The position numbers were made by a program, and so were the translations under genes. The notes below the pieces were generated by a model, which made no database searches, was not told the DNA's origin, and saw only the letters and a program-made list of their open reading frames with translations. A stretch of DNA of 64,000 bases, taken from the NCBI GenBank assembly GCA_003151115.1, contig PLWS01000002.1:620001-684000 (forward strand), read 5' to 3'. Below are positions 1,209 to 19,923 of this stretch, piece after piece (positions within the stretch are counted from its first letter, which is position 1; every line of letters begins with the position of its first letter). This stretch comes from Vulcanimicrobiota bacterium (GTDB taxonomy: Bacteria; Vulcanimicrobiota; Vulcanimicrobiia; Vulcanimicrobiales; Vulcanimicrobiaceae).

Positions 1209-1213
1209 TATAG

Positions 1214-1252
1214 GAGCCTGCCAAATAAGGGTTTTTGGCAGGCTCTTTATTT
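1214..1252 (+). terminator. Rho-independent terminator after att copy 1
   Basis: Perfect 10-bp stem GAGCCTGCCA/TGGCAGGCTC followed by TTTATTTGT. Confidence 0.75.
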
Positions 1253-1271
1253 GTCCCACAGAGCGATTTCA

Positions 1272-1295
1272 ATTTGGCTGCACATTTGGCTGCAT
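1272..1295 (+). promoter_or_regulatory. Candidate integrase arm-binding sites (left)
   Basis: ATTTGGCTGCAC-ATTTGGCTGCAT tandem 12-mers; same arrangement near the right end at 19779-19802. Confidence 0.6.
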
Positions 1296-1380
1296 AACGG
1301 ATGCACTTTTTCACCCGTTCCGGTGGACGGACGTGGATTCCGTTCGGGGTGGAACTCCGGCTGCAGGCGATACCTAGTAT

Positions 1381-1581
1381 GTGAAAGACTACAACCAACC
1401 CCCGCTCGCCGTCACGGTCGAACAGGCCGCGACTATGCTCAGCCTGAGCCGTGCGAAAGTGTATTTGCTCATGGACGAAGGGCGACTCGACTACATCAAG
1501 ATCGATACCGCTCGACGTGTCCCCGTCGATGCGATCTACGAATTTGTAGAACAGCATCGCAAACGCGCAACGGCTTCGTAG
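1381..1581 (+). CDS. Excisionase/MerR-like HTH DNA-binding protein (GTG start)
   Basis: VTVEQAATMLSLSRAKVYLLMDEGRLDYIKIDTARRVPVDAIYEFVE is a helix-turn-helix excisionase-family pattern; directly upstream of integrase. Confidence 0.8.
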   Translation: MKDYNQPPLAVTVEQAATMLSLSRAKVYLLMDEGRLDYIKIDTARRVPVDAIYEFVEQHRKRATAS

Positions 1582-1599
1582 ACGCTCGCAGGTATTACA

Positions 1600-2751
1600 A
1601 TGGCTGATCGCAGGCGCGGCCGATTTGAAGGCTCAGTGTATGAGCGTGAGTACCGGCGTCAAGATGGATCGATCTATCGGCGCTGGTGTGCTTGCGAATC
1701 CGTGCGGCTTGATAATGGGCGGGTTGTGCGGGTTACGGCAAGCGATCCAAGCAAATGCGCCGCTATCGCCAAAGTGCAAGAGACCAAGAAGGCCGTTCGC
1801 CAACGTCAGGAAAGGCCGGATCGGACTCGGACTACTCTAGCCGCCTATCTCGAACGCTGGTTAAAATCGTACGTCGAGAACGAGGTTGAAGAAACGACCT
1901 TCGTTTCATATCGAGGGATTATCCGGAAACACATCGTTCCGTATATTGGTCAAGTACGCCTGACCGATCTACGGACGCTGGATGTTCGAGCGCAAGTATT
2001 TGCCAAGCAGTTCGAGCGGGGCTGCTCCCCGCGGATCGCGCAGTTGTCATATCGCGTGCTGTCAATGGCTTTTAAACACGGCGTAAATCTCGGAGAACTT
2101 GACTGCAACCCGTGTGGAAAAATTAAGTCGCCACGCTACGTTGCAAAGAAGATCGCCCCACTTACCTTAGACCAATGCGAACGGCTTCTGAATTGTGCAC
2201 AGAAGACGCGCTTCTATGGACTGTATGTACTGGCCGTAACGACCGGCCTTCGACAGGGCGAACTGTTCGCGTTGCAGTGGAGCGACCTGCACGGGAAGAC
2301 GATCTCGGTGCGGCGTCAAGTGCGCAACATTAGCAACAAGCATCCGGAAATCGTCCAGCATACTAAGAGCCGCAAAGATCGAAATGTATATCTATCAGCG
2401 CTCGCACTAGCGGCGCTTACTGAGCAGCGTGAATCGCTCCGCGCAGAGGGACTTGGCACGGGAGACAACGATTTGATTTTTCCAGATCGCGACGGGAACT
2501 TGCTACGGCGCGAAAATTTCGTGCGGCGGCAATTCGTGCCGATGCTAAAGCGTGCGGAATTGCCGAAAATTCGCTTCCACGACCTCCGGCACACGGCTGC
2601 TACGCTGCTCTTTCAAAAAGACGTGCATCCCAAGATCGTTCAGGAGATGCTCGGGCATGCGACGGTGGCATTTACGCTCAATGTCTACTCGGCCTGGATA
2701 CCGTCAATGGGTGATCGCGCAGCGGATGCAATGGATTCGCTCTTTGCTTAA
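1600..2751 (+). CDS. int: Tyrosine recombinase / phage-type integrase
   Basis: 383 aa; TTGLRQGELFALQW (catalytic Arg I) and HDLRHTAATLLFQ...VQEMLGHATVAFTLNVYS (HxxR, LGH, Tyr). Confidence 0.95.
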   Translation: MADRRRGRFEGSVYEREYRRQDGSIYRRWCACESVRLDNGRVVRVTASDPSKCAAIAKVQETKKAVRQRQERPDRTRTTLAAYLERWLKSYVENEVEETTFVSYRGIIRKHIVPYIGQVRLTDLRTLDVRAQVFAKQFERGCSPRIAQLSYRVLSMAFKHGVNLGELDCNPCGKIKSPRYVAKKIAPLTLDQCERLLNCAQKTRFYGLYVLAVTTGLRQGELFALQWSDLHGKTISVRRQVRNISNKHPEIVQHTKSRKDRNVYLSALALAALTEQRESLRAEGLGTGDNDLIFPDRDGNLLRRENFVRRQFVPMLKRAELPKIRFHDLRHTAATLLFQKDVHPKIVQEMLGHATVAFTLNVYSAWIPSMGDRAADAMDSLFA

Positions 2752-3059
2752 GCGAAAGGCTCCTTGAGGGCTGAGCGGTGCTTTTTTGACGCTTTTTGTA
2801 CCTGCGCTGCCGAAGTTGCGCGAGAACGCGGCGATGCTCGCGTTGGTGAACATCACACCGAGATACCAAATTTTGGTTTGCCATCCAAACGACGCGCTTC
2901 TCTCGGCAATCTTTAACTGTACAGGGCACCGCAACTCGCGATTTAGGATTGCGTTTCTGCCTCGTCTTCGGTCTGACATCGATCTCGACAAGATTCAAGA
3001 GGCGCACTATTTCAGCGCCCGCGTTTTGCAAGGCGCTTAATTGTTCGGCTGAAATCGAT

Positions 3060-3641
3060 CTAGGCTTTGATTGAATCATCGCTCTCTTGGGCCTCTTGAT
3101 GCAAGTGCACTTTCCGCGAATTCATTAGAACATCGAACAGCGCAGCGCTTGAGGAACCCGCCTTTGCAGGCACTCCGTGAATTATTTCGCTCTTTCGGGC
3201 GGCCCAGGTTTCAGGAAATATACGTTCCATCTCTTCTTGACTGACTTCTTGGATCGTTTCCGTGCGAAGCGCCAATAAGAGTCCGCCGAGAAAATCGTCG
3301 TGGGTGTACGCATCAAACGAACACAGGACCAAATCAGGCTCGTTCAGCGACCGCACCTTTTCACGGTTTACCTTGCGTCGGTCGGAATCAGGCAGGGAAC
3401 TAAATTCGGCATAGCGATGCGTCGGTAGTTGTATCGGTGCTGGAAGATCAACAAGTTCCGTCACGTCGTGCGTCACCGAATCAACGATGGCTTTAGGGCC
3501 AGGAAATTTAAGGCCGCTTTGCACGTCCTGGAAACCGCCAATTATCCGCGAAAGATAAAACCCACCTGGCTTCAGCACGGCTCCGGCTATGGCTCCGATT
3601 TTTTGTTGTAGTCCATACGAGTCATCTACGTCGATCTTCAT
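3060..3641 (-). CDS. Hypothetical element protein
   Basis: In-frame ATG at MKIDVDDSYGLQQKI; no family recognised. Confidence 0.5.
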   Translation of the reverse strand: MKIDVDDSYGLQQKIGAIAGAVLKPGGFYLSRIIGGFQDVQSGLKFPGPKAIVDSVTHDVTELVDLPAPIQLPTHRYAEFSSLPDSDRRKVNREKVRSLNEPDLVLCSFDAYTHDDFLGGLLLALRTETIQEVSQEEMERIFPETWAARKSEIIHGVPAKAGSSSAALFDVLMNSRKVHLHQEAQESDDSIKA

Positions 3642-3898
3642 TTCCTTACTTTCTTGGATTGGAGTCCGGAGATGCTTTGTTCGGCCTCTTTGCAAGTTTT
3701 AAAAATGGCCGATCTCGCCCGCGCTTTTATCGCAGTGATCTTTGCTGCAACACTTTGATTCACTTGATCACCAAGCGGTTTCACGATCATGCTTCCGGCG
3801 TTTCGCGAGAGCATCCGGCCCTCAGTTATCGCGCGATTCCATTCGCGCGGGGTAATTGGACTGACCGAACCTAGACGTAATCGCATCTTCGCGCCCAT
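3638..3898 (-). CDS. Hypothetical small protein overlapping the next gene by 4 nt
   Basis: MGAKMRLRLGSVSPITPREW start; end overlaps start of 3060-3641 ORF. Confidence 0.4.
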   Translation of the reverse strand: MGAKMRLRLGSVSPITPREWNRAITEGRMLSRNAGSMIVKPLGDQVNQSVAAKITAIKARARSAIFKTCKEAEQSISGLQSKKVRK

Positions 3899-3995
3899 GT
3901 TGCTCCTTCTTGATTTGGTGGGGGCGGCATTCCCCGGGCAGGGTTTACCGCCCCCAAACGTAGCGACGGCCTGTGGTACGCCGCTTCGTACAAGA

Positions 3996-4007
3996 GAAAC
4001 TAGTTTC
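3996..4007. promoter_or_regulatory. 12-bp perfect palindrome, candidate operator
   Basis: GAAACTAGTTTC in the divergent intergenic region between 3898(-) and 4165(+). Confidence 0.4.
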
Positions 4008-4024
4008 AACGCACGGGCGAAACA

Positions 4025-4160
4025 CGGGCGAATTCATGCGAGCCACCTCGCGGCACCCTGAAGCGACTAATTTTTCTTCAGGAGGGCACCCAACGCGGGC
4101 GAATTCATACGAGCCGTCTCGCGGCATCCTGATAAGGATAATTTCTCTTGTGGAGGATAA
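4025..4160 (+). repeat. Tandem 71-bp leader duplication
   Basis: CGGGCGAATTCATRCGAGCCRYCTCGCGGCAYCCTGA...TAATTTYTCTTNNGGAGG at 4025 and 4096. Confidence 0.7.
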
Positions 4161-4164
4161 AATT

Positions 4165-4410
4165 GTGAAACACCAATCGATCGCACTTAGAGCAGTAGAG
4201 CAACGGACTTTAGCGGCACTCTGGCGCAACGTCTATGATAAGAACAACGAAGTAATTCTCCTTGTGTCCCAGATCGCAGCGGAAGTTCGCGTATCTGAGC
4301 GAGCGACCCGCGCCGCACTGAGAGATTTAGAGCGGTTCGGGCTAATCACCAAGCGCCGAAATAACGGTCCATTTCCGAACACATACCGTCTGCTCAGCCA
4401 ATCCCGGTGA
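4165..4410 (+). CDS. Winged-helix/HTH DNA-binding protein (GTG start)
   Basis: GGAGG upstream of GTG; SQIAAEVRVSERATRAALRDLERFGLITKRRNNGPFPNTYRL is a winged-helix pattern. Confidence 0.7.
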   Translation: MKHQSIALRAVEQRTLAALWRNVYDKNNEVILLVSQIAAEVRVSERATRAALRDLERFGLITKRRNNGPFPNTYRLLSQSR

Positions 4411-4416
4411 GAGGCC

Positions 4417-5217
4417 ATGCCAAGATACAAGGCGAGCCCCAACGCAACTGACGCGAATGGCCCGCTTAGCGTCACCATGCGTCAACGCGTAAGGAATTCC
4501 GATCTAAATCGCGACGAGAAGATTCTGCTGTTGGCATTGCTCGATCATGTGAACGTGAACAAGGACTGGAACCCGAGCACCCGGCAAGGCCAATGTTATC
4601 CGGGTAAGGAGACGCTGTGCTTCGAAACCGGTTATAAAGACAGGCAACTTCTCAACGCGCAATATTCGCTTATGCAGCGCGGGCTAATCAGCGTAGAGCA
4701 TCGGTCATTCGTCAAACCTACGACCGGCGATAAAACAAAGACGAACCTCTACACGACCAATTGCCTAGCAATTGACACATTGCCCGATGCTCGCCCTCGA
4801 AAAGCACCCGCAACCACTGCGGATGTTCCAGCCCCTAACGGAACGGAGCACCCGCAGCCAGCGCCGATGCCACCCGCAACCACTGCGGATACTCACCCGC
4901 AACCACTGCGGATGGCACCCGCAACCACCGCCGACAAACTAACAAGAGAACTAGTAAGTAGAACTAGCGTATTTGAACCTTTGCAAGAATCAACACCACC
5001 AAAACCACCAAAACCAGATAACCAGCCTCACCCTTCGCAGGTGAAAGATCGTTTTTTTGAAAGCGAGAGTTTGGCGCCCGTTCGTCCGCAACCAGTGCCG
5101 GTGCCCTTTACAGAATCGAAACGCAATGTCTGCCACAGATGCAAAGAGCAAGCGCCATTGCCCAATAGCGGCATGTGTGGTGATTGCACGGCTGACGTAA
5201 GGGCCAACTGGGCGTGA
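4417..5217 (+). CDS. Replication-initiator-like protein with HTH_36-type domain and C-terminal zinc-ribbon-like CxxC motifs
   Basis: NRDEKILLLALLDHVN...CYPGKETLCFETGYKDRQLLNAQYSLMQRGLISV resembles helix-turn-helix domains of plasmid/phage replication proteins; C-term CHRCKEQ...MCGDC. Confidence 0.6.
   Translation: MPRYKASPNATDANGPLSVTMRQRVRNSDLNRDEKILLLALLDHVNVNKDWNPSTRQGQCYPGKETLCFETGYKDRQLLNAQYSLMQRGLISVEHRSFVKPTTGDKTKTNLYTTNCLAIDTLPDARPRKAPATTADVPAPNGTEHPQPAPMPPATTADTHPQPLRMAPATTADKLTRELVSRTSVFEPLQESTPPKPPKPDNQPHPSQVKDRFFESESLAPVRPQPVPVPFTESKRNVCHRCKEQAPLPNSGMCGDCTADVRANWA
4808..4933 (+). repeat. Five iteron-like repeats CCGCAACCACTGCGG
   Basis: Start positions 4808, 4852 (degenerate), 4874, 4897 and 4919 (variant); exact copies are inverted repeats CCGCA-ACCAC-TGCGG; spacing 44/22/23/22 bp. 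Confidence 0.8.
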
Positions 5218-5330
5218 CGGGAACCCGCAGCATGGGACCCGAGAAAACCTGAGGCGTATTCTTCTGGAAAAAGTATTCACTGCGTGACGGGAACCGCAGG
5301 GTCCCATTGAAATCTCAGGCGTAATCTGGA
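5212..5330 (+). repeat. Imperfect tandem repeat (two units)
   Basis: GCGTGACGGGAACC(C)GCAG...GGGACCC/GGGTCCC...TCAGGCGTAATCTGG units at 5212 and 5282. Confidence 0.6.
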
Positions 5331-5438
5331 ATTGTCTGCGTTACGCGAAAATAGGCGATCATGGTTGCGTAGCCGCGCGGAAGTTAAATCTCAGATCGGG
5401 GGGGTGCGTTCCGCTCGGGCGTAATCTCGTTGCATTAA

Positions 5439-5479
5439 CTGCGTTACGGTGTACAATAAAAGCCTAAAACGTAACGCAG
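5439..5479. promoter_or_regulatory. Inverted repeat CTGCGTTACG-N21-CGTAACGCAG, candidate recombinase site
   Basis: Perfect 10-bp arms immediately upstream of the serine recombinase; further copies at 5336-5345, 6256-6265 and 19848-19857. Confidence 0.65.
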
Positions 5480-5482
5480 ACA

Positions 5483-6244
5483 ATGTGCCCTATCGACGGG
5501 TACGGCACAAGCAAAGGGGTTCAAATGCGCAGACGTAACGCTCCAAAAGAAAACCGCGCAACAATAGCATATATGCGCGTTTCAGTGGCGGAGTCGGCTG
5601 ATCGCGGATACTCGCTTGAGGCGCAACGGGAACGCCTGAAGGCGTTCGCTGTCTCAATGGAGCGCGGCGCTGTACAGGAATTCATCGTGGATGATGGTTT
5701 CTCGGGAAGTACGTTGGATCGCCCAGGAATGCGACGACTATTATCGATGGTGCGCTCCGGGGATGTCGGCTGTATCACGGTTACGAAACTCGACCGGCTA
5801 TCCCGATCCTTACGAGACGTGTTGGCGCTACTCGACCTCTGCAACCATACGGAAACGGCTCTTCTTTCGGCCTCTGAGGCACTCGATACATCGTCTGCGG
5901 TCGGAAAGATGCTGATTCATCTTCTTGCGTCCTTTGGCGAGTTTGAGCGCGGCAGAATCTCAGAGCGAACGAGTGATGTCTTGGCTTTTAAGCGTCGCTC
6001 AAAGGTCGTGTACGGGCCAACGCCTTACGGATACCGCCGAAGCAAAGATCGCCTTATTCCCGATCCCGTCCAACAGAAGGCTCTCGCCCTGATACGACGG
6101 CTCGACAGCGACGGGGCCTCACTTCGAACAATAGCGGCGGCTCTTACCAAGAAAAGATTTGCTCCGCCGAAAGGCAAGGCATGGCACGCACAGAGCGTCC
6201 GTCGTGTCTTGTTATCAAAGATGACCACAGAGAACGTCGCGTGA
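5483..6244 (+). CDS. Serine recombinase/resolvase family (start may be 5525)
   Basis: AYMRVSVAESADRGYSLEAQRERL, ITVTKLDRLSRSLRDVL, LLASFGEFERGRISERT and GPTPYGYRR, followed by a recombinase-domain fragment. Confidence 0.92.
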   Translation: MCPIDGYGTSKGVQMRRRNAPKENRATIAYMRVSVAESADRGYSLEAQRERLKAFAVSMERGAVQEFIVDDGFSGSTLDRPGMRRLLSMVRSGDVGCITVTKLDRLSRSLRDVLALLDLCNHTETALLSASEALDTSSAVGKMLIHLLASFGEFERGRISERTSDVLAFKRRSKVVYGPTPYGYRRSKDRLIPDPVQQKALALIRRLDSDGASLRTIAAALTKKRFAPPKGKAWHAQSVRRVLLSKMTTENVA

Positions 6245-6850
6245 TGCAGTAAGCCCGTAACGCAGTAAACGAGCACCGGCACTCAGTGCGGGTGGGGCCT
6301 ATAAAGGCGCGTCGGAGTTAACGTGGGTGACGGGGGTCAGTTGTATCAATCTTTTAACCTGAGCGGCTAGATACTGTGCCCTGATCACACCTTCGTTTGA
6401 ACATGACTCGTTTTCTGAATTGTCCGCGTTACGCCGAATGTTTATTCGGGCGCGATGCTCCCATACCGATGGGCTTCGCATGGTCGTGTCAGCGTATAGG
6501 TCGCCGCAAATCCTATTGTCGCATGGAAACCGCACCGAAACCACAGATTGCCTCGGGGAACTACAGTAGAGGCTCTTTGCGAGCGGCTTTTTCTCGCGCC
6601 ACGCCTAGGGATTCTTAACGCCTCTTCCCGTATCGGCGGCCCAAGAGCCGCAATCAACTGTTCATATGAATAAGCCATCAGAAACGCTTCGACCCTTTTG
6701 GCGCGGGGTCCGGGCTGATCAGGCCGAACTGAAGATGCCGAATCGGTTCGTGGCTCCCCCCATAGCTGAGGAGAAAGCGAATCATGGGCTGAAGGCATAG
6801 GTGGCCGTTCCGCTCATTTCACGGCTGCGAGTGATAAGGATTATTGAAGG

Positions 6851-8833
6851 ATGGCGAACGCGGACCTTAACTGGATTGCAAATTTTATTTGGGGAATCGC
6901 TGATGACATTCTGCGTGATCTCTATGTTCGAGGCAAGTACCGTGACGTAATTCTTCCGATGATGGTACTGCGCCGGCTCGACGCAGTGCTGGAACCGACA
7001 AAGCCGGCCGTACTCGACATGAAGGCCTCTCTGGATAAGGCCAAGATTACGAACCAAGATGCAGCTCTCCGATCGGCCGCTGATCAAGCATTTTACAATA
7101 CCTCGAAATTCATGCTTCGAGACCTGAAATCACGCGCTAGTCAACACCAACTTAAAGCTGATTTCGAAGCCTATCTCGACGGTTTTTCGCCAAACGTCCA
7201 AGAAATTCTTGACGCGTTCGAGTTCAGAAACCAGTTGCCGCGTCTCTCGAAAGCTGATGCGCTAGGTACACTCATCGAGAAATTCCTAGATACCTCGATA
7301 AATCTCAGCCCCAATCCGGTGTTGAACGCTGACGGTTCGATAAAGCACGTTGGTGTTGATAATCATGCGATTGGCACGGTATTTGAGGAATTGGTGCGCC
7401 GTTTTAACGAGGAAAACAATGAGGAAGCCGGAGAGCACTGGACGCCGCGCGACGTAGTGAAGCTCATGGCGCGGCTCATCTTCCTCCCTGTTGCCGAAAG
7501 CATCGAGTCTGGAACATATCTTCTCTACGACGGTGCGTGCGGGACGGGTGGCATGCTCACCGTGGCGGACGAAACTCTGCAAGAGCTTGCGGCTAAGCAT
7601 GGTAAACAGGTAGCGGCGCACCTCTACGGACAAGAAATCAATTCCGAGACCTACGCAATAGCCAAAGCGGACCTGCTACTCAAAGGTGAGGGCGAAGGAG
7701 CCGACAACCTGATCGGTGGCCCGGAATATTCAACCTTATCTAACGATGCTTTTCCGTCGCATCAATTTGACTTTATGCTCTCTAATCCACCCTACGGGAA
7801 GAGCTGGAAGGCCGACTTGGAGCGGATGGGTGGAAGGGATGGCCTAAAAGATCCGCGTTTCCTAATCGAGCATGGAGGCTCGGAGTATTCTCTGGTTACG
7901 CGGTCGAGCGATGGTCAGATGCTGTTCCTTGCAAACATGCTATCAAAGATGAAGCACGGCAGCCCGCTTGGGAGCCGCATCGCCGAGGTTCATAACGGTT
8001 CGTCACTATTTACCGGCGACGCAGGGCAGGGCGAGAGTAACATCCGCCGCTGGATTATCGAGAACGATTGGCTCGAGGCGATTGTCGCACTGCCGCTTAA
8101 CATGTTCTACAACACCGGGATCGCCACATATATTTGGATGCTCACAAATCGCAAAGCCACGCATCGAAACGGCAAGGTACAGTTAATCGATGCGACCGCG
8201 TGGTACAAGCCCTTGCGCAAGAATCTTGGAAAAAAGAACTGCGAACTCTCACCCCAGGACATCCAACGTATCGTCGATGTTTTCTTGCGGTTTGAAGAGT
8301 CCGCTGAGTCAAAAATATTCGACAACGCTGCATTTGGCTATTGGAAGGTGACGATCGAACGTCCGTTACGGCTATCACGAGTCGACCCGGAGCGGAGCTA
8401 CACTCCCAAGGAAATAAAGGCGCTCAAAGTGCAGAACGGCGTCGACGAGTCAGGACGGCCGGTGATTCGCAAGATAGTAAAAGGGCGCGACGCTAATGCC
8501 GATTCGCTGCGGGGACGATTCGACGTGATGATTGGTGGTAAGCCATGTGTAGTGGAATATGAACCCGACGCCGACTTGCGAGATTATGAGCAGGTACCCT
8601 TGCTAGAGACGGGCGGGATCGAGGGGTTTGTTCAACGCGAGGCGCTCCCGTATGCACCGGATGCTTGGATCGACGAGACAAAGACGGAGATCGGATACGA
8701 AATCAACTTCAATCGGTACTTTTACAAACCGTTGCTCTTGCGACCACTTGAGGAAATACGTTCAGAGATAGTCGCGGCCGAGAAAGACAGCGCGGGGCTG
8801 CTCACCGCGATCCTTGAGAGCGCGGTTCCGTGA
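6851..8833 (+). CDS. hsdM: Type I restriction-modification system methyltransferase subunit
   Basis: DGACGTGGMLTVADE (motif I) and LSNPPYGKSWK (NPPY motif IV); 660 aa; overlaps hsdS. Confidence 0.95.
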   Translation: MANADLNWIANFIWGIADDILRDLYVRGKYRDVILPMMVLRRLDAVLEPTKPAVLDMKASLDKAKITNQDAALRSAADQAFYNTSKFMLRDLKSRASQHQLKADFEAYLDGFSPNVQEILDAFEFRNQLPRLSKADALGTLIEKFLDTSINLSPNPVLNADGSIKHVGVDNHAIGTVFEELVRRFNEENNEEAGEHWTPRDVVKLMARLIFLPVAESIESGTYLLYDGACGTGGMLTVADETLQELAAKHGKQVAAHLYGQEINSETYAIAKADLLLKGEGEGADNLIGGPEYSTLSNDAFPSHQFDFMLSNPPYGKSWKADLERMGGRDGLKDPRFLIEHGGSEYSLVTRSSDGQMLFLANMLSKMKHGSPLGSRIAEVHNGSSLFTGDAGQGESNIRRWIIENDWLEAIVALPLNMFYNTGIATYIWMLTNRKATHRNGKVQLIDATAWYKPLRKNLGKKNCELSPQDIQRIVDVFLRFEESAESKIFDNAAFGYWKVTIERPLRLSRVDPERSYTPKEIKALKVQNGVDESGRPVIRKIVKGRDANADSLRGRFDVMIGGKPCVVEYEPDADLRDYEQVPLLETGGIEGFVQREALPYAPDAWIDETKTEIGYEINFNRYFYKPLLLRPLEEIRSEIVAAEKDSAGLLTAILESAVP

Positions 8834-10236
8834 TCGATGAACTGAGGCCGTATCCGGCTATGAAACCCTCTGGCAAATCGTGGCTCGGTCGCGTCCCCGA
8901 GGCGTGGATGATTTTACCGAACCGTGCGCTCTTTGGTGAGATCAAGGACCGAGGGCACGAATCGGAAGAGATGCTCTCTGTCTTGATTAGCCGGGGTGTA
9001 ATTCGACAGTCGGCGTTGATCGAGGATAGTAGCAAAAAGGACGGGTCGAACCAGGATCGGAGCAAGTATAAGCTTGTTGTTCCGGGCGATATTGTATATA
9101 ACAAGATGCGAGCGTGGCAGGGCGCAATCGGCGCGTCGGAGTTGCGAGGCATCGTCAGCCCTGCGTATGTCGTTATCCGATCTCGTGCAGTAGAGTCCGA
9201 TTCTCGTTACTTCCACTATCTTTTTAGGACCCCGTCGTTCGCGGCTGAAGCGCAGAGATGGTCATATGGAATTACTTCGGACCAATGGAGTTTGCGTCCA
9301 GAGCAATTCAAAGAGATTTACTGCTGCGTCCCCCCTATTTCCGAACAGAAAGACATCGTTGCCTTTCTCGATCATGCGGACCGGCAGATTCAGCGATACA
9401 TTAGAGCGAAGCGAAAGCTCATCGCTCTTCTGAACGAGCAAAAGCAAGCCACCATCGACCGGGCAGTTTCGCGCGGCCTAGATCCGAGCGTGCGCCTGAA
9501 GCCGTCTGGCCTCGAGTGGCTCGGCGACGTACCAGAGAATTGGGAGGTGAAGAAGTTACGCTTCTTGTTTCGATACGTTAAGGGTCGCCGCGCCGGCGAC
9601 CTCACTAATGAGTACATTGGTAAGAACCCCGGGTCATATCCCGTCTATAGCGGCCAGACTGAGGATCAGGGCATAATGGGATACATTGACTCTTACGAGT
9701 TTGACTTCTCATCTCCGGTCATCTTCGTCTCGACGGTTGGCGCTCGAGCTATGTCTACTAGGCTTGTACACGGCAGGTTTAGCCTCTCGCAAAATTGTGC
9801 GCTAATCATTCCAAGAACCTCGGATGTGCATCCCCTCTTCTATGAGAATGTTTTCCAACGGCTGTTTGCTAACGAGAGGGCGAGCATTTCGTTGATCATG
9901 CAACCTTCACTAAGGTTTTCTGACCTCAACCGTTTTTATGTTCCGCATCCACCGGTAACTGAACAGGCGGAGATTGCTCGCTACCTCGCGCACGCCAGCG
10001 GGGACCTTGACCGCGCAGTCACATCCGCCACTCGTGAGATTGGACTGTTACAAGAATTTCGAACCCGGCTCATCTGTGACGTCGTAACGGGTAAGGTTGA
10101 CGTGCGCGAAGCGGCAGTGCCGCGCCATGATGAAAGCGAACCGGCCGAATCGCTCGACGAAGCCGAGAATATGTTTGAAATAGCTCGCGCCGAGGTGGGC
10201 GGCGACGACCATGAAGTCAACGAGTCTGTCGCATGA
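8830..10236 (+). CDS. hsdS: Type I restriction-modification system specificity subunit
   Basis: Two TRD-like halves, each beginning K-P-S-G-x-x-W-L-G-x-V-P-E-x-W; located between hsdM and hsdR. Confidence 0.93.
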   Translation: MIDELRPYPAMKPSGKSWLGRVPEAWMILPNRALFGEIKDRGHESEEMLSVLISRGVIRQSALIEDSSKKDGSNQDRSKYKLVVPGDIVYNKMRAWQGAIGASELRGIVSPAYVVIRSRAVESDSRYFHYLFRTPSFAAEAQRWSYGITSDQWSLRPEQFKEIYCCVPPISEQKDIVAFLDHADRQIQRYIRAKRKLIALLNEQKQATIDRAVSRGLDPSVRLKPSGLEWLGDVPENWEVKKLRFLFRYVKGRRAGDLTNEYIGKNPGSYPVYSGQTEDQGIMGYIDSYEFDFSSPVIFVSTVGARAMSTRLVHGRFSLSQNCALIIPRTSDVHPLFYENVFQRLFANERASISLIMQPSLRFSDLNRFYVPHPPVTEQAEIARYLAHASGDLDRAVTSATREIGLLQEFRTRLICDVVTGKVDVREAAVPRHDESEPAESLDEAENMFEIARAEVGGDDHEVNESVA

Positions 10237-13184
10237 CCACCGACACGACCGAAAAGGGGCTCGAAAGCCTAATTGTTGCTGGCCTGACTGAACGCGACTG
10301 GTGTGCGGGTTCACCAAATGATTACGACCGAGCCTGGACGATCGATCTTTCGCAATTTCGTGCGTTTTGCACGGAAACCCAAGAGCATCTGAGCGCCGCT
10401 CTAGATCTTGAAAACGATAGCCCCATTAGGCAAAAATTCCTAGCGCGGTTGCAAGGCGAAATCAGCAAACGAGGGATTATCGATGTGCTACGTAAGGGCG
10501 TTAAGCACGGCCAGCACGAGATAGCATTGTTCTACGGTGCACCTTCGCCCGGAAACGCCAAAGCCGAAGAACGTTTCCGGGCAAACCGTTTCTCGGTGAC
10601 GCGCCAATTGCGGTATAGTGGTGACGAAACCGCTCTAGCGCTAGATCTCGTACTGTTCGTCAACGGTTTACCAATCGCTACCTTCGAATTGAAGAACAAT
10701 CTCACGAAACAGACAGTTGACGATGCGGTAGAGCAATACAAGCGAGATCGCGATCCTCGGGAAAAGATTTTTGAGTTTGGTCGCTGCGTTGCGCACTTCG
10801 CCGTTGACGAGGCAGAAGTGCGCTACTGCACGCATCTGAAGGGCAAAGCGTCGTGGTTCTTGCCCTTCAATCAAGGGTGGAACGAGGGTGCCGGTAATCC
10901 GCCCAATCCGGACGGCCTAAAGACCGAGTTCCTATGGAAGCGTATCCTGACGCTCGATGGCCTGGCCGATATCCTCGAAAACTATACCGAAATCGTTGAG
11001 GAGATCGACAGGAAAACAGGCCGAAAAAAGCGTGTCTTGATTTTCCCTCGATATCATCAGTTGGACGTGGTTCGGAAGCTTCTGGCGCACAGCGAGCAAC
11101 ATGGCGCCGGTCATCGGTACCTCGTTGAGCACTCCGCCGGTAGTGGAAAATCAAACTCAATCGCGTGGCTTTCTCGGCAATTGATCGGTTTGCGGTCTGG
11201 GGAGCAAGAGATATTCGATTCTATTATTGTGGTTACCGATCGTCGGCTTCTCGATGATCAAATACATCAAACCGTAAAACAGTTCGCGCAAGTCGGTGCA
11301 ACGGTCGGACACGCGGACCGATCGGGGGACTTGCGGCGCTTCATCGAGAGCGGCAAAAAAATAATCATTACGACCGTGCAAAAGTTTCCTTTTGTCCTCG
11401 AAGATATTGGGAACGAGCATCGCGATCGGCGTTTTGCGATTATCATCGACGAAGCTCATTCCAGTCAGGGTGGCAAGGCAGCGGCGGCAGTTAATATGGC
11501 GCTGGGTGCTGGCGGCAATGCGGAGCAAGACGAGACAATCGAGGACACAGTCAATCGTATCGTGGCGTCTCGCAAGCTCTTGCCCAATGCAAGCTATTTC
11601 GCGTTTACCGCAACACCGAAAGACAGGACATTAGAAATATTCGGTGAGGCAGCGCCTAACGGCCCGAAAATTAAGCATACGCCATTCCATAGCTATACAA
11701 TGAAACAGGCGATTCAGGAAGGCTTCATTTTAGACGTCATCCGAAACTATACGCCTGTAAACAGCTATTACCGTCTAGAAAAAAGAATCGAAGGAGATCC
11801 GGAATTCGACGTTAGGCGCGCAAGGAAGAAGCTGCGACGCTATGTCGAGCGACATGACCATGCAATCCAGCTGAAAGCTGAGATCATGGTAGATCACTTC
11901 CACGAAAGCGTCTTGGCTGTGAACAAGATTGGCGGAGAGGCGCGAGCGATGATCGTGACGAGTGGTGTCGAACCCGCCATTCGATATTTCCACGCTATTA
12001 GCGACTACCTACGCGAGCGAAAGAGTCCTTACAAAGCCATTGTGGCGTTTTCGGATGAGCACGAATATCGGGGCAGATCTGTAACCGAAGCCTCCCTAAA
12101 CGGGTTCGCCTCCAACAAGATTGCCGACAAGATTCAAGAACATCCATATCGCTTCTTGGTTTGCGCCGACAAATTTCAGACCGGCTACGATGAGCCACTG
12201 CTTCACACAATGTACGTTGACAAGCCGCTTTCCGGGATAAGGGCGGTGCAAACGCTATCTAGGCTCAACCGAGCCCAACCTCAAAAATATGACACATTCG
12301 TACTCGATTTTCAGAATAACATCGACACAATCTCCGAAGCGTTCGAACCGTATTATCGGACGACAATTCTCAGCGACGGGACTGACCCCAACAAGCTACA
12401 TGATCTAAAAAGCGCACTTGATGACTCTGAAGTGTACAGCGCTTCCCAAATAGACGAATTCGTTGCTTTGTACTTAGGTGGGGCTGATCGCGATCGACTA
12501 GATCCGATTCTCGATGCTTGCGTCGCTACCTATAAAGAACAACTCGACGAAGATCGACAAGTGGAATTCAAGGGAAAATCGAAAATATTCACGCGCACGT
12601 ACAGCTTTCTAGCATCGATCTTGCCCTTCACAAACACCGATTGGGAAAAGCTCTCGATTTTCTTGAATTTTCTCGTGTTGAAGCTTCCGGCACCCAAGGA
12701 AGAAGATCTATCAAAAGGCATTTTGGAAACCATCGATATGGACAGTTACCGTGTTGAAATGTTGGCTGCTGAGAAGATAGAGCATGCAGATGCAGCCGGT
12801 GAGATCGATCCCAAACAACCGGGAGGCGTAGGCCGCAAGCCAGAGTCTCAGCTGGACCGATTGTCGAATATTCTAAAGACGTTCAATGATGAGTACGGCA
12901 ACATTGAGTGGAAGGATGCTGACCGTGTACGGGAATTGATTACTCGCCAAATTCCTCAGAAGGTCTCCGCTGATGCCGCCTACCAAAATGCGAGGGAGAA
13001 TTCTGACAAACAAAACGCTCGCATCGAGCACGACAAAGCCCTTGCTCGGGTAATTGTGAGCGTGATGAAAGACGACACCGAACTTTTCAAACAGTTTAGC
13101 GACAACCCACAGTTCAAGCGTTGGCTTGCAGACACGGTTTTTGGGCTCACTTACGAGCGAGAGCCTCAGCGCACCGGACGTTAG
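10233..13184 (+). CDS. hsdR: Type I restriction endonuclease subunit R
   Basis: HSAGSGKSNSIAWL (Walker A), IIIDEAHSSQGG (DEAH box), FAFTATPKDRTLEIFG, KFQTGYDEPLLHTMYVDKPL. Confidence 0.96.
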   Translation: MTTDTTEKGLESLIVAGLTERDWCAGSPNDYDRAWTIDLSQFRAFCTETQEHLSAALDLENDSPIRQKFLARLQGEISKRGIIDVLRKGVKHGQHEIALFYGAPSPGNAKAEERFRANRFSVTRQLRYSGDETALALDLVLFVNGLPIATFELKNNLTKQTVDDAVEQYKRDRDPREKIFEFGRCVAHFAVDEAEVRYCTHLKGKASWFLPFNQGWNEGAGNPPNPDGLKTEFLWKRILTLDGLADILENYTEIVEEIDRKTGRKKRVLIFPRYHQLDVVRKLLAHSEQHGAGHRYLVEHSAGSGKSNSIAWLSRQLIGLRSGEQEIFDSIIVVTDRRLLDDQIHQTVKQFAQVGATVGHADRSGDLRRFIESGKKIIITTVQKFPFVLEDIGNEHRDRRFAIIIDEAHSSQGGKAAAAVNMALGAGGNAEQDETIEDTVNRIVASRKLLPNASYFAFTATPKDRTLEIFGEAAPNGPKIKHTPFHSYTMKQAIQEGFILDVIRNYTPVNSYYRLEKRIEGDPEFDVRRARKKLRRYVERHDHAIQLKAEIMVDHFHESVLAVNKIGGEARAMIVTSGVEPAIRYFHAISDYLRERKSPYKAIVAFSDEHEYRGRSVTEASLNGFASNKIADKIQEHPYRFLVCADKFQTGYDEPLLHTMYVDKPLSGIRAVQTLSRLNRAQPQKYDTFVLDFQNNIDTISEAFEPYYRTTILSDGTDPNKLHDLKSALDDSEVYSASQIDEFVALYLGGADRDRLDPILDACVATYKEQLDEDRQVEFKGKSKIFTRTYSFLASILPFTNTDWEKLSIFLNFLVLKLPAPKEEDLSKGILETIDMDSYRVEMLAAEKIEHADAAGEIDPKQPGGVGRKPESQLDRLSNILKTFNDEYGNIEWKDADRVRELITRQIPQKVSADAAYQNARENSDKQNARIEHDKALARVIVSVMKDDTELFKQFSDNPQFKRWLADTVFGLTYEREPQRTGR

Positions 13185-13657
13185 CACCACACTGTACAGT
13201 ATCCCTAGGCAAATCCGGCGGGATATATCCTAACGCGCGCAAAACGTCCGGTCGCCTTCTACCCGAGCGCGGCATGGTTTGTTTTCGCCGTAGAATAAGA
13301 AAATACTCAAAGCATACAGGGGTCTGCCGTGTATTTACGGGAGCGCGGAGAGTGAATAACGGCGGCATGGTAAACGAAACGAAGGCCACCGCATTCGACG
13401 AAGCACCTGGAGCGGGTGCGAATCCGCCTGTTGGTTCGACGAAAAGCGCGAACGGATGCTCACACTCATATCCTTATTCATGGAGCCAACTTGCCGCGCG
13501 ATTTTGCGAGCGTTAATATGGAAGCGCGACGCCACGCACTTTCCGGCACTCCCCTATTTGACTGCGTGACCGGATTCCCGGATAATCGCGCCAGGGCGTC
13601 CGGGCCCATCCAAGGACCTTGGACCAGTGGATCGCGCCGATGGGAGTGGCGCATCGA

Positions 13658-14314
13658 ATGGCCGTAACTCAGCATCTGTGGGCGATGGCAACCGACCCGG
13701 CATGGCACAGCGCGATCGCAGCGTGGGCCATTTTCGTTGTGACGGCGATCGCGGCCGGCTATGGCGTACCGGCGGCCCTTGCGGCGGCGAAGACATTTCG
13801 GCTAGAGTCTGAGCCGGTAATTCTCGTTCGTCAATTGGGGCGCGAGGAGACACCTCCACACGATCCCGCGAGGCTCTTGAATGACTTCGTTGTTGATGGA
13901 ACTCCTTTGCTCCGCGATGGCGTCACCTTGCGGGAGGGCAGAGATAGCGACAGTACGCATCCAAATATGCAAGCCTCCTTGAACAAGAGCGTTGTTTTTG
14001 AACTGCACAACGCGGGTCGCTCGCCGGCGCTCCTGGTTGAGATTCCGTTCAAGGTAACGGTTCCGACGTTTCTCCCGGAACGCGACGCCGATAATATGAC
14101 CCCTGAAGTCGGAACGCAGCACGGTTCCGGATTGATCACACTTCCGGGAATTGGCGCCGGCGAGTCAGTTTATGTGCTGCTCCAGAACTTGAGTGGAAAT
14201 GAGGCAACGCTGACCGCTGAAGAAGTTGGACATTACGTTCGAATTGAAGATCGCGGGCGTAAAGCATCGGATCTCGCCGTCGTCGCCGTCCGCCCCTTTC
14301 ATTTGCACGCGTAG
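13658..14314 (+). CDS. Hypothetical membrane-anchored protein
   Basis: N-terminal TM segment IAAWAIFVVTAIAAGYGVPAALAAA, then a soluble domain; located between hsdR and the Shedu-like gene. Confidence 0.65.
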   Translation: MAVTQHLWAMATDPAWHSAIAAWAIFVVTAIAAGYGVPAALAAAKTFRLESEPVILVRQLGREETPPHDPARLLNDFVVDGTPLLRDGVTLREGRDSDSTHPNMQASLNKSVVFELHNAGRSPALLVEIPFKVTVPTFLPERDADNMTPEVGTQHGSGLITLPGIGAGESVYVLLQNLSGNEATLTAEEVGHYVRIEDRGRKASDLAVVAVRPFHLHA

Positions 14315-14341
14315 GGATGATCATTATGAAAGACACTTTCT

Positions 14342-15340
14342 ATGGATGACGGCGCAATAATCGAGCGGAAGTTAGCCCAGTCGGGCAACGTATCTTACGC
14401 CGAGCCTGTGGTAATCCACGAGACTACCGAAAAGACTACGAAATTCGTTCCTTATTCGGTCGCTCGTAGCGCCGGCCACGAGTTCAATGCGAAGATCGAG
14501 TGCCACCTGCGCAGCAAACTGGCGCCGACAAGCATTAGTTTTAACAGTGATGATCTGCGAAAGTTGTATGCTGCGCTGGCCCAATATCAAGCCGTTATGA
14601 CCGACGACTCTGATGGCACTTTCATAAGTTTCAGGATCAAAGACGGGCAGTTATCCGGCGCCGAACCGGAGTCTCTATTCGCTGGAGTCATGGCCCTTCT
14701 CGCAACTCCGTCGATGATTCGGCAAATATCTGAGCGACCTGGTAGCCTGACGGATTCCTTAAGGTCGGCGATGCGCATCGCTGAACTTCGGTCGGCCCTC
14801 GGTGAATTGCGCGCTTACCTTGATAACGACGAGAACAGGGAACACATATATCAAGCGTGGATCGAGCGACATAGTTGGGTGTTTGGTGCCGAGTACCTCG
14901 AAATGGACAAGGTTCGCTCCATCGCCGCTCGCGACAATGTGGATGTTATTGTCGCACGAGCCACTAATGGTTTTCGAGAACTTGTCGAGTTGAAGATACC
15001 CGGTATGAAGGTGCTTAACTATGATCAGAAGCACCGGAACTATTATTTCTCGGCTGAGGTCAGCGAGGCGATTGGGCAGGTTGCACGCTATTTAGAGAAA
15101 TTTGCGGAGTATGCTGCTAATGGACTTGACGATTTTCCGAACGTTATCGCGTTTCATCCAGTTGCAACAATTGTAATTGGTAGGTCAAATGAGTGGAGCC
15201 GCGATCAACACCGCGCTTTGCACAGTCTGAATGCCCACCTTCGAGACATCCAGATAATAACGTTTGACTATCTCCTGCGGCGGGGCGAAAGACTGTTGGA
15301 GATTATCCAATCACCCGCCAAAGATGAGGTCATTGTATAA
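14342..15340 (+). CDS. DUF4263 / Shedu-like anti-phage nuclease (SduA-like)
   Basis: C-terminal REHIYQAWIERHSWVFGAEY...DNVDVIVARATNGFRELVELKIPG...SAEVSEAIGQVARYLEKF matches the D..ExK (PD-(D/E)XK) layout of DUF4263. Confidence 0.75.
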   Translation: MDDGAIIERKLAQSGNVSYAEPVVIHETTEKTTKFVPYSVARSAGHEFNAKIECHLRSKLAPTSISFNSDDLRKLYAALAQYQAVMTDDSDGTFISFRIKDGQLSGAEPESLFAGVMALLATPSMIRQISERPGSLTDSLRSAMRIAELRSALGELRAYLDNDENREHIYQAWIERHSWVFGAEYLEMDKVRSIAARDNVDVIVARATNGFRELVELKIPGMKVLNYDQKHRNYYFSAEVSEAIGQVARYLEKFAEYAANGLDDFPNVIAFHPVATIVIGRSNEWSRDQHRALHSLNAHLRDIQIITFDYLLRRGERLLEIIQSPAKDEVIV

Positions 15341-15358
15341 GAAAGTGCGGAACTGAAT

Positions 15359-15499
15359 ATGACGCCACGTTACCCTTATGTAATTACTGCGCTGGTCTTG
15401 GCGGCATTCGCCGCCGGCGCAGGAAGTGGTGCGAGCGCAGTTTGGCTGGCGTTACCTGTCGGCTCCTTGCAACCCGATTGGCGTCGCACTTACAAATAG
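15359..15499 (+). CDS. Putative small membrane protein (46 aa)
   Basis: MTPRYPYVITALVLAAFAAGAGSGASAVWLALPVGSLQPDWRRTYK; absent from ORF track because of length. Confidence 0.3.
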   Translation: MTPRYPYVITALVLAAFAAGAGSGASAVWLALPVGSLQPDWRRTYK

Positions 15500-15581
15500 T
15501 CAAGTTGCGGTGATTTGCGCAAATGAAGCGCGCGTCTATCTCAGGGACCGGTAAGAGCATCGGAAGGGGCGCGGCATCTGG

Positions 15582-16283
15582 ATGAGCATTCCGACGATCC
15601 TGGGCGGGGAGATACTCTTAATGTTCGGGCTCTTTATGGGATCAATCGGAGCCGCGCTTCTGGGACTGGAATCCTTAGGCGTTCAGGATTTGCTCGCGAA
15701 CATGAATGCCGGTGAGCAGTTTATCACGCGCTTAACGCGAATCGGGTTCACAGCCTATTTAAACAATGTGGTCCTATTTTTCGTAATCAGCGCGGTCGGT
15801 GCTATAGGGATATATGTGATCACCAATAGCGTGGTCGACGCGCTATTGTTTGGGCCGTTGACCTACTTTCTGTGGCGATTGTCGACATGGTTCAATGATT
15901 ATACAATGATATGGGCTACAGCCGGTTACAAGTTCATCGGGAATGCTACGAAAGCCTTACCGTTTTTCCCGTGGGGCCTTCTTGGGTATATCCTGATAAT
16001 GGCGCCGGCGACGATCATACTCGTCGCTGTGTTTTTGTTCAGAGTTTCCGCGAGGTTCGCCACTGTGATCCCAGTGTTTTTTGTCAACGAGCGGCTCATC
16101 ATGCCATGGCTGGAAAAATGCCTTCAGGCCACCGCCGAATGGCTTGAGACACAGCAGCGTTGGCACTTGAAGCGGTTCGCGTTCACGGGGATGTTATTAC
16201 TAGTTTGTGGATTCATGTATCAACTCTTCGGAACCATAATTCTCACCATTGCAAGCACTTCGCAGCCCCAGGTACCAAAATGA
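15582..16283 (+). CDS. Hypothetical multi-pass membrane protein
   Basis: 233 aa with about five hydrophobic segments; no family recognised. Confidence 0.65.
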   Translation: MSIPTILGGEILLMFGLFMGSIGAALLGLESLGVQDLLANMNAGEQFITRLTRIGFTAYLNNVVLFFVISAVGAIGIYVITNSVVDALLFGPLTYFLWRLSTWFNDYTMIWATAGYKFIGNATKALPFFPWGLLGYILIMAPATIILVAVFLFRVSARFATVIPVFFVNERLIMPWLEKCLQATAEWLETQQRWHLKRFAFTGMLLLVCGFMYQLFGTIILTIASTSQPQVPK

Positions 16284-16392
16284 ATTTTCCACATCCGTTG
16301 TTGGTTGCGGGGGCGACGTGGATGATCTGACGAGCAAGGTCGACGACATTGAAGCTAGGGTTAGCGATCTCGAAAGCCGTTGAATTCTGAAC

Positions 16393-16438
16393 GCGACATA
16401 GCCGCCTCGCTCCCGGCACAGGGGGGGGCGGCTGTGTC
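16393..16438 (+). repeat. Stem-loop repeat upstream of AbiTii-like gene (copy 1)
   Basis: GCGACATAGCCGCCTCGCTCCCGGCACAGGGGGG...GGCGGCTGTGTC hairpin; the 34-bp element recurs at 17563-17596. Confidence 0.65.
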
Positions 16439-16478
16439 TTCGGCAGCCCTTAATCAAACCGTTCGCGAACATGGCACA

Positions 16479-17504
16479 ATGACCGAAAAGCAGAGCGAAT
16501 ACTGCATAGGGCTCGTGAAATCGGCCTTGGATGATCTCGAAGCCGAAAATGCCCGCTTAAGCGCCGTCATACGAAAATGCCTTCGCATCGCGCGTTTGCG
16601 AAACGACTTTGATAATTTGTGGTGGCTCAATTATGAATTGTTAGACTTGAGCACGGACAATCGCATCGCAGTGCAAGAATTTGCATCGAAAGAACTTTCT
16701 CCCCATTACACTCGCGACCTATTTGAACAGCGCGCCAAAGAGTACGAGGACGCTTTTGTTGCAGAGCGCAAGTTTCCCGATTTGCAATCCGCAGCTACGA
16801 AAAAGCCAAAACTATTAAACCAGAATGAAAGCATAGAAATCATCGAATCACGGATCGCGTCGCTTGAGGCAGACTTGTTCGGACCCCCGGCACCTCATAA
16901 TCAGGGAGTCGCTCGTATGCTGCGACAACAACAAATTAACAACCTCAAAAAAATTGTGGCGCGCGTTTCTCAGCGCGTTCACACGTTCTTAAGTCTAACG
17001 GAAGCGCAGTTGCTCGCCGGCCAAGTTAATGCCGACATATTCGAAAGGAATAGAGAATACGTTGACTCCCAGCTAAAGAAAATTGCGCCCGATGCTCTCG
17101 AAAAATTCGCTGCTGTTTATAAACGGGTTGAAGAGGGCGAAGAGGAGGCAAAAAGTCAGGCGCTGCTGTCGTGCAGACGTATTCTAAAATGCGTTGCGGA
17201 CGCTGTATATCCGGCATCCAACGCCGCCGTCGTCGGCTCTGATGGTCTATCCCGAGTATTGACGGAGGACGGGTACATTGCACGACTTTGGCAATTCGTT
17301 TTTGAGCGTCTAGGGCAGACGACATCCAGCAAACTCATAAAGGTTCAGATCGAGGACCTCGGCCACCGCATAGATCGTGTATACGATCTAGCGAACAAAG
17401 GTACTCACGTCACTGTGTCAGATTTCGAACTGGACCAATGCGCGAGCCAAACATATCTTCTGGTCGGTGATCTTTTACGCATCCACGATCAAGGCGCGGC
17501 CTAG
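16479..17504 (+). CDS. AbiTii-domain protein with possible HEPN-like C-terminus
   Basis: N-term VKSALDDLEAENARLSAVIRKCLRIARLRNDFDNLWWLNYEL resembles the AbiTii domain; C-term RVYDLANKGTHVTVSDFELDQCASQTYLLVGDLLRI. Confidence 0.6.
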   Translation: MTEKQSEYCIGLVKSALDDLEAENARLSAVIRKCLRIARLRNDFDNLWWLNYELLDLSTDNRIAVQEFASKELSPHYTRDLFEQRAKEYEDAFVAERKFPDLQSAATKKPKLLNQNESIEIIESRIASLEADLFGPPAPHNQGVARMLRQQQINNLKKIVARVSQRVHTFLSLTEAQLLAGQVNADIFERNREYVDSQLKKIAPDALEKFAAVYKRVEEGEEEAKSQALLSCRRILKCVADAVYPASNAAVVGSDGLSRVLTEDGYIARLWQFVFERLGQTTSSKLIKVQIEDLGHRIDRVYDLANKGTHVTVSDFELDQCASQTYLLVGDLLRIHDQGAA

Positions 17505-17562
17505 TATCGTTAGCAAGGTTCCCAAGTGCGTACGTATTTGCCGCCCTAGCCACTCGCGATAA

Positions 17563-17596
17563 GCGACACAGCCGCCCGGCTCCCGGCACAGGGGGG
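17563..17596 (+). repeat. Direct repeat downstream of AbiTii-like gene (copy 2)
   Basis: GCGACACAGCCGCCCGGCTCCCGGCACAGGGGGG; near-identical to 16393-16426. Confidence 0.65.
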
Positions 17597-17716
17597 CCTC
17601 GTTTTCCCGGCTCCTGGCTCCTATCCCCTCGTGACGGTGCCCTCTCCAATCGGCTGACGCATCACCTCGCGACCCACCATGCTGGTCAATCGGAACTGAC
17701 CACCATTTGACCACGA

Positions 17717-17980
17717 CTACCGTTGTGTCTTTTGAAGAAGTCTCTTAAGAAATTGCACTGGTTCAATGTTGAGGTATGACAGAACCTCGATAAGTTCTAC
17801 TACGTCAAGTCGCCGCTCGCCAGTTTCAATTTTCGAAACGAATGACTGCGGCTTGCCGAGCATTCTCGAAAGCCGAACTTGTGTGAAGCCAGCCTTCATC
17901 CGCTCTTCGGCTAGCATCCTTCGAAGGCGCTTGTATCGCTCCGAATAAATCGATTTGGTCAACGGGTGTTTCCCACACAC
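17717..17980 (-). CDS. XRE-family HTH regulator
   Basis: MLAEERMKAGFTQVRLSRMLGKPQSFVSKIETGERRLDVVELIEVLSYL. Confidence 0.9.
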   Translation of the reverse strand: MCGKHPLTKSIYSERYKRLRRMLAEERMKAGFTQVRLSRMLGKPQSFVSKIETGERRLDVVELIEVLSYLNIEPVQFLKRLLQKTQR

Positions 17981-17999
17981 TCATTATCAAACCTGATTC

Positions 18000-18023
18000 A
18001 GTATATCCCAATATAGGATACTA
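18000..18023. promoter_or_regulatory. Candidate operator between the divergent XRE gene and the 18099 gene
   Basis: AGTATATCCCAATATAGGATACT, an imperfect inverted repeat in an AT-rich divergent promoter region. Confidence 0.4.
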
Positions 18024-18098
18024 ATTAAGAGTTGGGAATCTACTTGTCTGACGTCTAGGGATGCACCAGAAACGACAATGTGGAGGCGGACACGACAA

Positions 18099-19187
18099 AT
18101 GAATAATGACTCTTTTAGTTCTCTGATTGTTTTATGCCTTATCGTGTCATTGGTCGGCTTCGCGTCGGCAATTACGCAAAGCCGACGCAAACTCAGATCA
18201 GGGTGGCACTTCGCGACCGCGTTCATATGTTTTGCGGCGGCCATGGCCATGATATTCGGGGTCGCGTGGAACCCACCTAACGACGCGATCTCGCGCTTAA
18301 ATCAAACCAAAAGGTCGCCGCAGACAGTTGTTAGGAAAATGCCACATCCCGCCCCGGATACTGCATCCGCATGTGTAGATGCTCCCATGCTATTCGCCAC
18401 CGCTAATACCAGTGACCAGCACCATCATACCGCTGATATCGCCCGCCAGTTTGATAAAGCCGCAGATGAATACGGCCAGTGCGCACGCCTGCCAAAACAG
18501 AACGGTGGGGCTTCCGATGCGGCGTACGAGTTTTCGGAAAGTGCAGCCACGCGCATGACCGCCGCCCAAGAATGGGACCTCATCGGAGATTTACCAAAAA
18601 GTCTAAAAGAGCACTATGTGGTTCTTAATCAAGCGCGCGAAATGTATAGGAGCAATCCAGATCATCGCCAAGCGAATGACCTCATATCTGGCGCGCAAGA
18701 CGAGATCAAAGACTTGCAAAGACGAATCAAATTATCGCACGCCGATAACCCCAGATTAGCCAAAGCAATCGCTTATTGGACTCATGCGTCAAATGCACTT
18801 CTGGGAGCAGACCTCGATGCTATAAAGGCGGGACGACTCGCCGACGCCGGTGATAAGGCGGAGGCATCTCGGATACTGAAAGAATCTACTCTATACGTTG
18901 GCGACGGATTAGCGCAGTTTCCAGAGGATTCGGGAAAGTCCATTCTTGGGGATAACCTGCCCGACGGATGGGAAGACGTACAGGGCGATCTGTCTGATGC
19001 CTTCGATCAAACAACAATAGCATTAAATAAACTCAGGGAATACTTGGATACGAATTACCCTTCGGCGCTCGCAGATTCTAAGGATGCATTTTTATTGCGA
19101 GCGGATTACCTCAAGAGTGCAACTACGCAAGCGCGTAAACATGTAAGGGATTTAGGCGGTAATGATAAGGATATTCCAAGTGTGTGA
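18099..19187 (+). CDS. Hypothetical protein with two N-terminal TM helices and a helical C-terminal region
   Basis: SSLIVLCLIVSLVGFASAI and FATAFICFAAAMAMIFGVAW, then helical soluble sequence. Confidence 0.6.
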   Translation: MNNDSFSSLIVLCLIVSLVGFASAITQSRRKLRSGWHFATAFICFAAAMAMIFGVAWNPPNDAISRLNQTKRSPQTVVRKMPHPAPDTASACVDAPMLFATANTSDQHHHTADIARQFDKAADEYGQCARLPKQNGGASDAAYEFSESAATRMTAAQEWDLIGDLPKSLKEHYVVLNQAREMYRSNPDHRQANDLISGAQDEIKDLQRRIKLSHADNPRLAKAIAYWTHASNALLGADLDAIKAGRLADAGDKAEASRILKESTLYVGDGLAQFPEDSGKSILGDNLPDGWEDVQGDLSDAFDQTTIALNKLREYLDTNYPSALADSKDAFLLRADYLKSATTQARKHVRDLGGNDKDIPSV

Positions 19188-19301
19188 TTCCGCCTTTTGC
19201 TGATCACGGAGCCGCGTCGTCTGTGCCATTTACCGCATTACACTACAGGGTAAATTGTGAGCAGGGGCATCTGGTCAATTGACTCCGTTACGAAAAATCG
19301 G

Positions 19302-19745: not shown

Positions 19746-19778
19746 GCATAAAGCATACCACGGTGGGGCTATAGCCGG

Positions 19779-19802: not shown

Positions 19803-19923
19803 ATAACATGGACGAACTATATAGCGCGCGTGGACAAGGGTGGATCGCGTAACGCAGATAAACCCTTTACGTATGGACGTTTTAGTGCACTCTATGGACG
19901 CGGGCGGGTTGCTCCCTGTCGGA

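Follow-up and report, generated by a model that had tools for sequence, protein, structure and literature searches.

In an uncultured bacterium, a mobile element appears to have its replication origin inside its own initiator gene, in the layout known from phage lambda. The element is integrated at a tRNA-Asn gene and lies in the 64,000-nucleotide stretch of Vulcanimicrobiota DNA that we analyzed (the window). Inside its rep gene, five copies of a dyad-symmetric repeat follow one another at spacings that fit the DNA helix rather than the codons, and end where the most AT-rich part of the gene begins. We read positions 4805 to 4996 as a theta-type origin embedded in the gene that encodes its own initiator, Rep, with a probability of roughly 0.8; on this reading Rep would bind the repeats, the adjacent DNA would melt, and the excised circle would replicate. 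An initiator gene with an internal iteron origin is an already known kind of gene. Related elements, among them a syntenic module in another genus of the same family (genome G017), seem from their sequences to repeat the in-gene layout with quite different DNA. The first-pass annotation had proposed a lambda-O-like origin here, and at the level of sequence comparison that proposal is supported. The features concerned are as follows.

1164–1208, + strand: left attachment repeat, the 3′ half of tRNA-Asn
1381–1581, + strand: excisionase-like HTH_17 protein (xis), from profile matches
1600–2751, + strand: tyrosine integrase of the element, from profile matches
3060–3695, − strand: rep-module protein without an assigned function, 32% identical to a counterpart beside the G017 rep
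4165–4410, + strand: small winged-helix gene immediately 5′ of rep; one precedes the G017 rep too
4417–5217, + strand: Rep, a winged-helix (HTH_36) initiator-like protein with a disordered linker over the array and a Cys4 C-terminus, from Pfam, PHROG, AlphaFold2 and Foldseek
4805–4825, + strand: repeat 1, CACCCGCAACCACTGCGGATG, core 4808–4822, frame 1
4849–4869, + strand: repeat 2, variant, core 4852–4866, frame 0
4871–4891, + strand: repeat 3, core 4874–4888, frame 1
4894–4914, + strand: repeat 4, core 4897–4911, frame 0
4916–4936, + strand: repeat 5, variant, core 4919–4933, frame 1
4937–4996, + strand: A-rich stretch immediately 3′ of the array, a candidate DNA-unwinding region (the gene's 40-nt AT peak is at 4934–4973)
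5083–5103, + strand: repeat 6, outlying and weak, core 5086–5100, frame 0
5483–6244, + strand: serine recombinase of the rep module, with Resolvase and Recombinase domains (Pfam)
19924–19968, + strand: right attachment repeat, the identical 45 nt, end of the element

The five CCGCAACCACTGCGG-like copies inside this 266-codon gene have cores starting at 4808, 4852, 4874, 4897 and 4919, spaced 44, 22, 23 and 22 bp apart, exactly as first annotated. Copies 1, 3 and 4 are perfect, and copies 2 and 5 are indeed variants, differing mainly in the right arm. A sixth, weaker copy at 5086 (CCGCAACCAGTGCCG) had been overlooked. The shared unit of about 21 bp, CACCCGCAACCACTGCGGATG, contains a 5-5-5 dyad, CCGCA-ACCAC-TGCGG. 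That 5-bp inverted arms flank ACCAC had been stated in the first-pass annotation, and the dyad proved real: 83% of its cells are complementary over the six copies, and none of 300 column shuffles did as well. The array is far beyond chance even with the protein sequence held fixed, since the gene has five copies in 150 bp and 1,000 protein-preserving shuffles of synonymous codons gave at most three (up to two mismatches allowed). The motif CCGCANCCANYGCSG has nine matches in the 2.56-Mb genome, six of which lie within rep.

The most AT-rich 40-mer of rep, 4934 to 4973, starts where the last main repeat ends. Its AT content of 0.68, against a gene mean of 0.46, is at the 99th percentile, so the AT-rich sequence noted earlier after the array is the AT peak of the whole gene. 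The peak lies on the 3′ side only, the 5′ flank being average, and it is the coding strand that is A-rich. The window thus has helically phased repeats beside an AT-rich element, as expected of an iteron origin. In five comparison genes, the best 40 nt beginning no more than 40 nt 3′ of the array likewise ranked in the gene's top tenth.

The protein encoded by rep looks like an initiator. Against Pfam HTH_36 (PF13730) Rep scored 22.5 bits alone and 27.3 bits with its frame neighbors (cutoff, 25), and this N-terminal domain, which also appears as a winged helix in the predicted model, is the one that marks HTH_36-type replication initiators. Rep also weakly matched PHROG families annotated as replication initiation (O-like), the best at 28.5 bits; the matches to PHROG 1032, 270 and 391 span the HTH and linker region. 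AlphaFold2 predicted a confident winged helix at about residues 16 to 120, a disordered linker at residues 129 to 235 (pLDDT below 50), and a moderately confident C-terminal end with two CxxC motifs (CxxC...CxxC, Cys4). The array codes for roughly residues 130 to 174. The HTH domain, the disordered linker and the Cys4 C-terminus are thus supported; the array had earlier been placed between an N-terminal HTH domain and a zinc-ribbon-like end. Foldseek searches of the PDB returned general winged-helix proteins first (TFIIE), then the initiator domains 5kbj, 4pql and 4pt7, and also the DnaD N-domain 2v79. HTH phage proteins were matched among the BFVD viral models, one of them a phage replication protein O and another a GpO N-terminal protein. 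No close relatives of Rep were found among the genome contigs, viral contigs or phages searched, and the plasmid search gave a single weak match, RepC-like.

We envisage that Rep binds the iterons, which are dyad-symmetric and about 22 bp long, through its N-terminal winged helix and probably as a dimer. Iterons lying on one face of the helix would allow an O-some-like complex to form and to melt the A-rich stretch next to them. Through its C-terminal part Rep may then recruit a host helicase or primase, after which the excised circle could replicate. The linker peptide would simply follow from the DNA sites, and the iterons would be free to change in sequence without regard to the reading frame.

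The same protein might instead act in autoregulation or, like TubR or ParR, in partition, without any origin function, and the array would be its operator or centromere. Winged-helix regulators are near in fold, Foldseek gave a weak match to TubR (4asn), and in-gene repeats can serve repression. The array lies about 390 bp into the gene, however, away from the promoter, and the A-rich AT peak comes right after it, as in the lambda origin; the PHROG matches are to replication initiators. A centromere would also call for a TubZ- or ParM-like NTPase, and none was recognized in the neighborhood; specifically, no TubZ GTPase gene was found among the Pfam-examined genes at 1381–6244 and 13619–19187, or by eye in the open reading frame lists. 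We consider this explanation unlikely.

In the annotated lambda record, gene O starts at 38686 and the iterons start at 39034, 39054, 39078 and 39101. Their spacings are 20, 24 and 23 bp, and they fall in all three reading frames (0, 2, 2 and 1), so that a site read in several frames is a property of the textbook case as well. The 40 nt 3′ of the fourth lambda iteron have an AT content of 0.78, with the same polarity as in the window rep. Common to both genes are an N-terminal winged helix, dyad iterons about 20 to 24 bp apart that lie mid-gene in several frames, and an A-rich tract directly 3′ of them (PMC7466680). The window iterons differ in being G+C-rich and of other sequence, and their carrier is an integrative element, not evidently a phage, that has no recognizable gene P (helicase loader).

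Rep nevertheless stands outside the lambda O family. Mid-gene iterons followed by an AT-rich tract were tested as a mark of that family and are present in the window rep. However, Pfam Phage_rep_O (PF04492) matched neither Rep (E ≤ 0.1) nor its G017 homologue (E ≤ 0.5), although lambda O itself scored 123 bits against it; hhalign of A1 with lambda O gave no match, and Rep has a Cys4 C-terminus unlike that of O. We rejected membership on the failure of the Pfam model. The RepA_N family of pSK41 (PF06970) was rejected too, as neither Rep nor the G017 homologue matched it and the similarity is only one of fold, to the initiator domains 5kbj, 4pql and 4pt7. The origin of pSK41 is nonetheless a precedent: it lies centrally inside rep, its Rep boxes are bound by the N-domain, and the linker is dispensable (PMC5703833). 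In the initiator of pPR9, a pfam13730 N-domain together with an origin is fused to the C-domain of pSK41, and this hybrid supports autonomous replication; its N-domain is thus of the HTH_36 type, as in the window Rep (PMC5703833). Both are staphylococcal plasmids with another C-terminal domain, whereas Rep belongs to an integrated element of an uncultured phylum. The O-like initiators of PHROG 1032, 270 and 391 resemble Rep in HTH and linker, with weak scores. On its sequence, Rep is best filed with the HTH_36 initiators, and by analogy it would work like lambda O or pSK41 Rep while lying outside the O family.

We looked for the same layout in other genomes; the comparison draws on the one clearly syntenic homologue and on other HTH_36 initiators. 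In the G017 module, rep is 28% identical over the aligned region and has a small winged-helix gene upstream; the module also contains a counterpart of the 3060–3695 protein, a serine recombinase and, next to tRNA-Thr, a tyrosine integrase. Its rep linker contains four units of about 22 bp (TAGGTCGCCGCACGACCTA) spaced 24, 21 and 23 bp apart, unrelated in sequence to those of the window. The HTH_36 initiator linkers of four further genomes of this family also have arrays: four copies of GACCTGGAACAATT in frames 0, 1, 0 and 2 in G018, five copies in frames 1, 1, 2, 1 and 0 in G042, and copies spaced 24, 24 and 23 bp in G073 and 24 and 24 bp, in frame, in G075. All five arrays occupy the same place in the gene and are unrelated in sequence. 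Pooled with the window array, a set partly chosen because an array had been seen, they have spacings of 21 to 24 bp, or double that, in 17 of 19 cases, and spacings that are multiples of 3 in 7 of 19, about the third expected if codons were irrelevant. Array spacing is phased to the helix, not to the codons. The dyad was not significant in two of six arrays (L013 and L068).

These frames speak to the possibility that the DNA repeats exist only through duplication of a proline-rich linker peptide. The linkers are rich in Pro, Ala and Thr, and in-frame 15-bp arrays do occur in the L014, L095 and L096 initiators. The five main window copies, however, are read in frames 1, 0, 1, 0 and 1, giving the two peptides first reported, PATTAD and HPQPxxM, and the copies in G017, G018, G073 and G042 occupy two or three frames. 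Only the seven spacings noted above suit a peptide repeat, the array is lost in synonymous shuffles that preserve the peptide, and the linker is predicted to be disordered. We rejected this explanation on the frame and shuffle tests and hold it to be very improbable. The homologues kept phased, mostly dyad-symmetric repeats in the linker while peptide and repeat sequence varied, which agrees with the initial suggestion that the DNA site rather than the peptide is conserved.

As an unbiased check, we took from the phylum the 14 genes with the best HTH_36 matches, without regard to arrays. Nine had a linker array (two of them weak, and three with an in-frame 15-bp period), one had an array directly downstream, and four had none in or beside the gene. 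The homologue L003 scored 31 bits against HTH_36. LexA genes caught by the HTH_36 search served as controls and contained no phased arrays of at least three copies, although in many of them two copies matched in frame, usually 69 bp apart. In a background scan of about 155 kb, arrays of at least three copies turned up at rep genes, at one site upstream of the rep of G018 and in a single lysine-rich repeat protein, but nowhere else. Scanning viral contigs with the initiators of G018/G075 and G017 gave no match, and a further scan of genome contigs brought in no new loci.

Some further arrays were seen. In L095 (genome G111), whose HTH_36 rep is on the − strand, about 15 copies of the palindrome TTGGTATACCAA are spaced 15 to 18 and 54 bp apart, all in frame, and encode the peptide GIPKIGIPEIGIP; DNA repeat and peptide repeat cannot be told apart there. 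The site upstream of the G018 rep (L074:8641) is a second phased array, GTGAACACCTTAGT, with spacings of 46, 48 and 27 bp and a sequence different from that of the array within the gene. At 36341–36534 of the window, 15/18-bp repeats in a region encoding a Lys/Gly/Arg-rich repeat protein are a true peptide repeat, because all spacings are multiples of 3.

The window thus supplies a concrete, testable pair of candidate origin and initiator from the mobile elements of a phylum that is largely uncultured, and the frame test shows that in such linkers it is the DNA site that is under selection, not the peptide. Spacing phased to the helix and not to codons is a simple signature that could find similar in-gene origins in metagenomes. 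A broader proposal, to which we give even odds, concerns the integrative elements of Eremiobacterota/Vulcanimicrobiota. Their initiator DNA-binding domain and in-gene origin would together evolve fast as a specificity cassette, DNA-level selection for sites in helical phase taking precedence over the coding frame of the linker; frame-blind repeats in HTH_36 linkers could then locate the origins of uncultured mobile elements straight from sequence.

The rep-bearing element spans about 1209–19968 (18.8 kb), between the first two window copies of the 45-nt 3′ half of tRNA-Asn (1164–1208, 19924–19968 and 22351–22395). The intact tRNA-Asn(GTT) lies 5.9 kb to the left of the first of these, at G000:C6:615248–615323. 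With one intact gene and three 3′ halves, several elements have accreted there in a tandem island. A conserved right-end segment of about 106 bp is present at 1058–1163 and 22245–22350 and recurs in other genomes of the genus. Besides xis, the integrase and the rep module, the element carries defense genes. A type I restriction-modification-like cluster (hsdM/S/R) was recognized by eye in the open reading frame list at 6851–13184. Beside this cluster, the gene at 14342–15340 encodes a Shedu protein (SduA_C, 64.7 bits), and that at 16380–17504 encodes a protein resembling AbiTii (23.6 bits, below the cutoff). We noticed no relaxase or phage structural gene in 1209–19968 and recognized no helicase, helicase loader or primase gene in the element.

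That the array is a resolution or integration site of the serine recombinase, encoded about 270 bp downstream of rep and also beside the G017 rep, is barely plausible and was rejected on gene order: the G017 recombinase lies divergently on the other side of rep with the array still in the linker, we noticed no comparable recombinase next to the other arrays, and an inverted repeat at 5440–5479, directly upstream of the recombinase gene, is a more natural site. This perfect 10-bp inverted repeat, CTGCGTTACG...CGTAACGCAG around TACAAT, is likely the operator or recombination site of the recombinase. In the leader of the small winged-helix gene, 4014–4158 is an imperfect tandem duplication of about 72 bp, each copy of which carries CGGGCGAATTCATRCGAGCC..CTCGCGGCAYCCTGA and a GGAGG.
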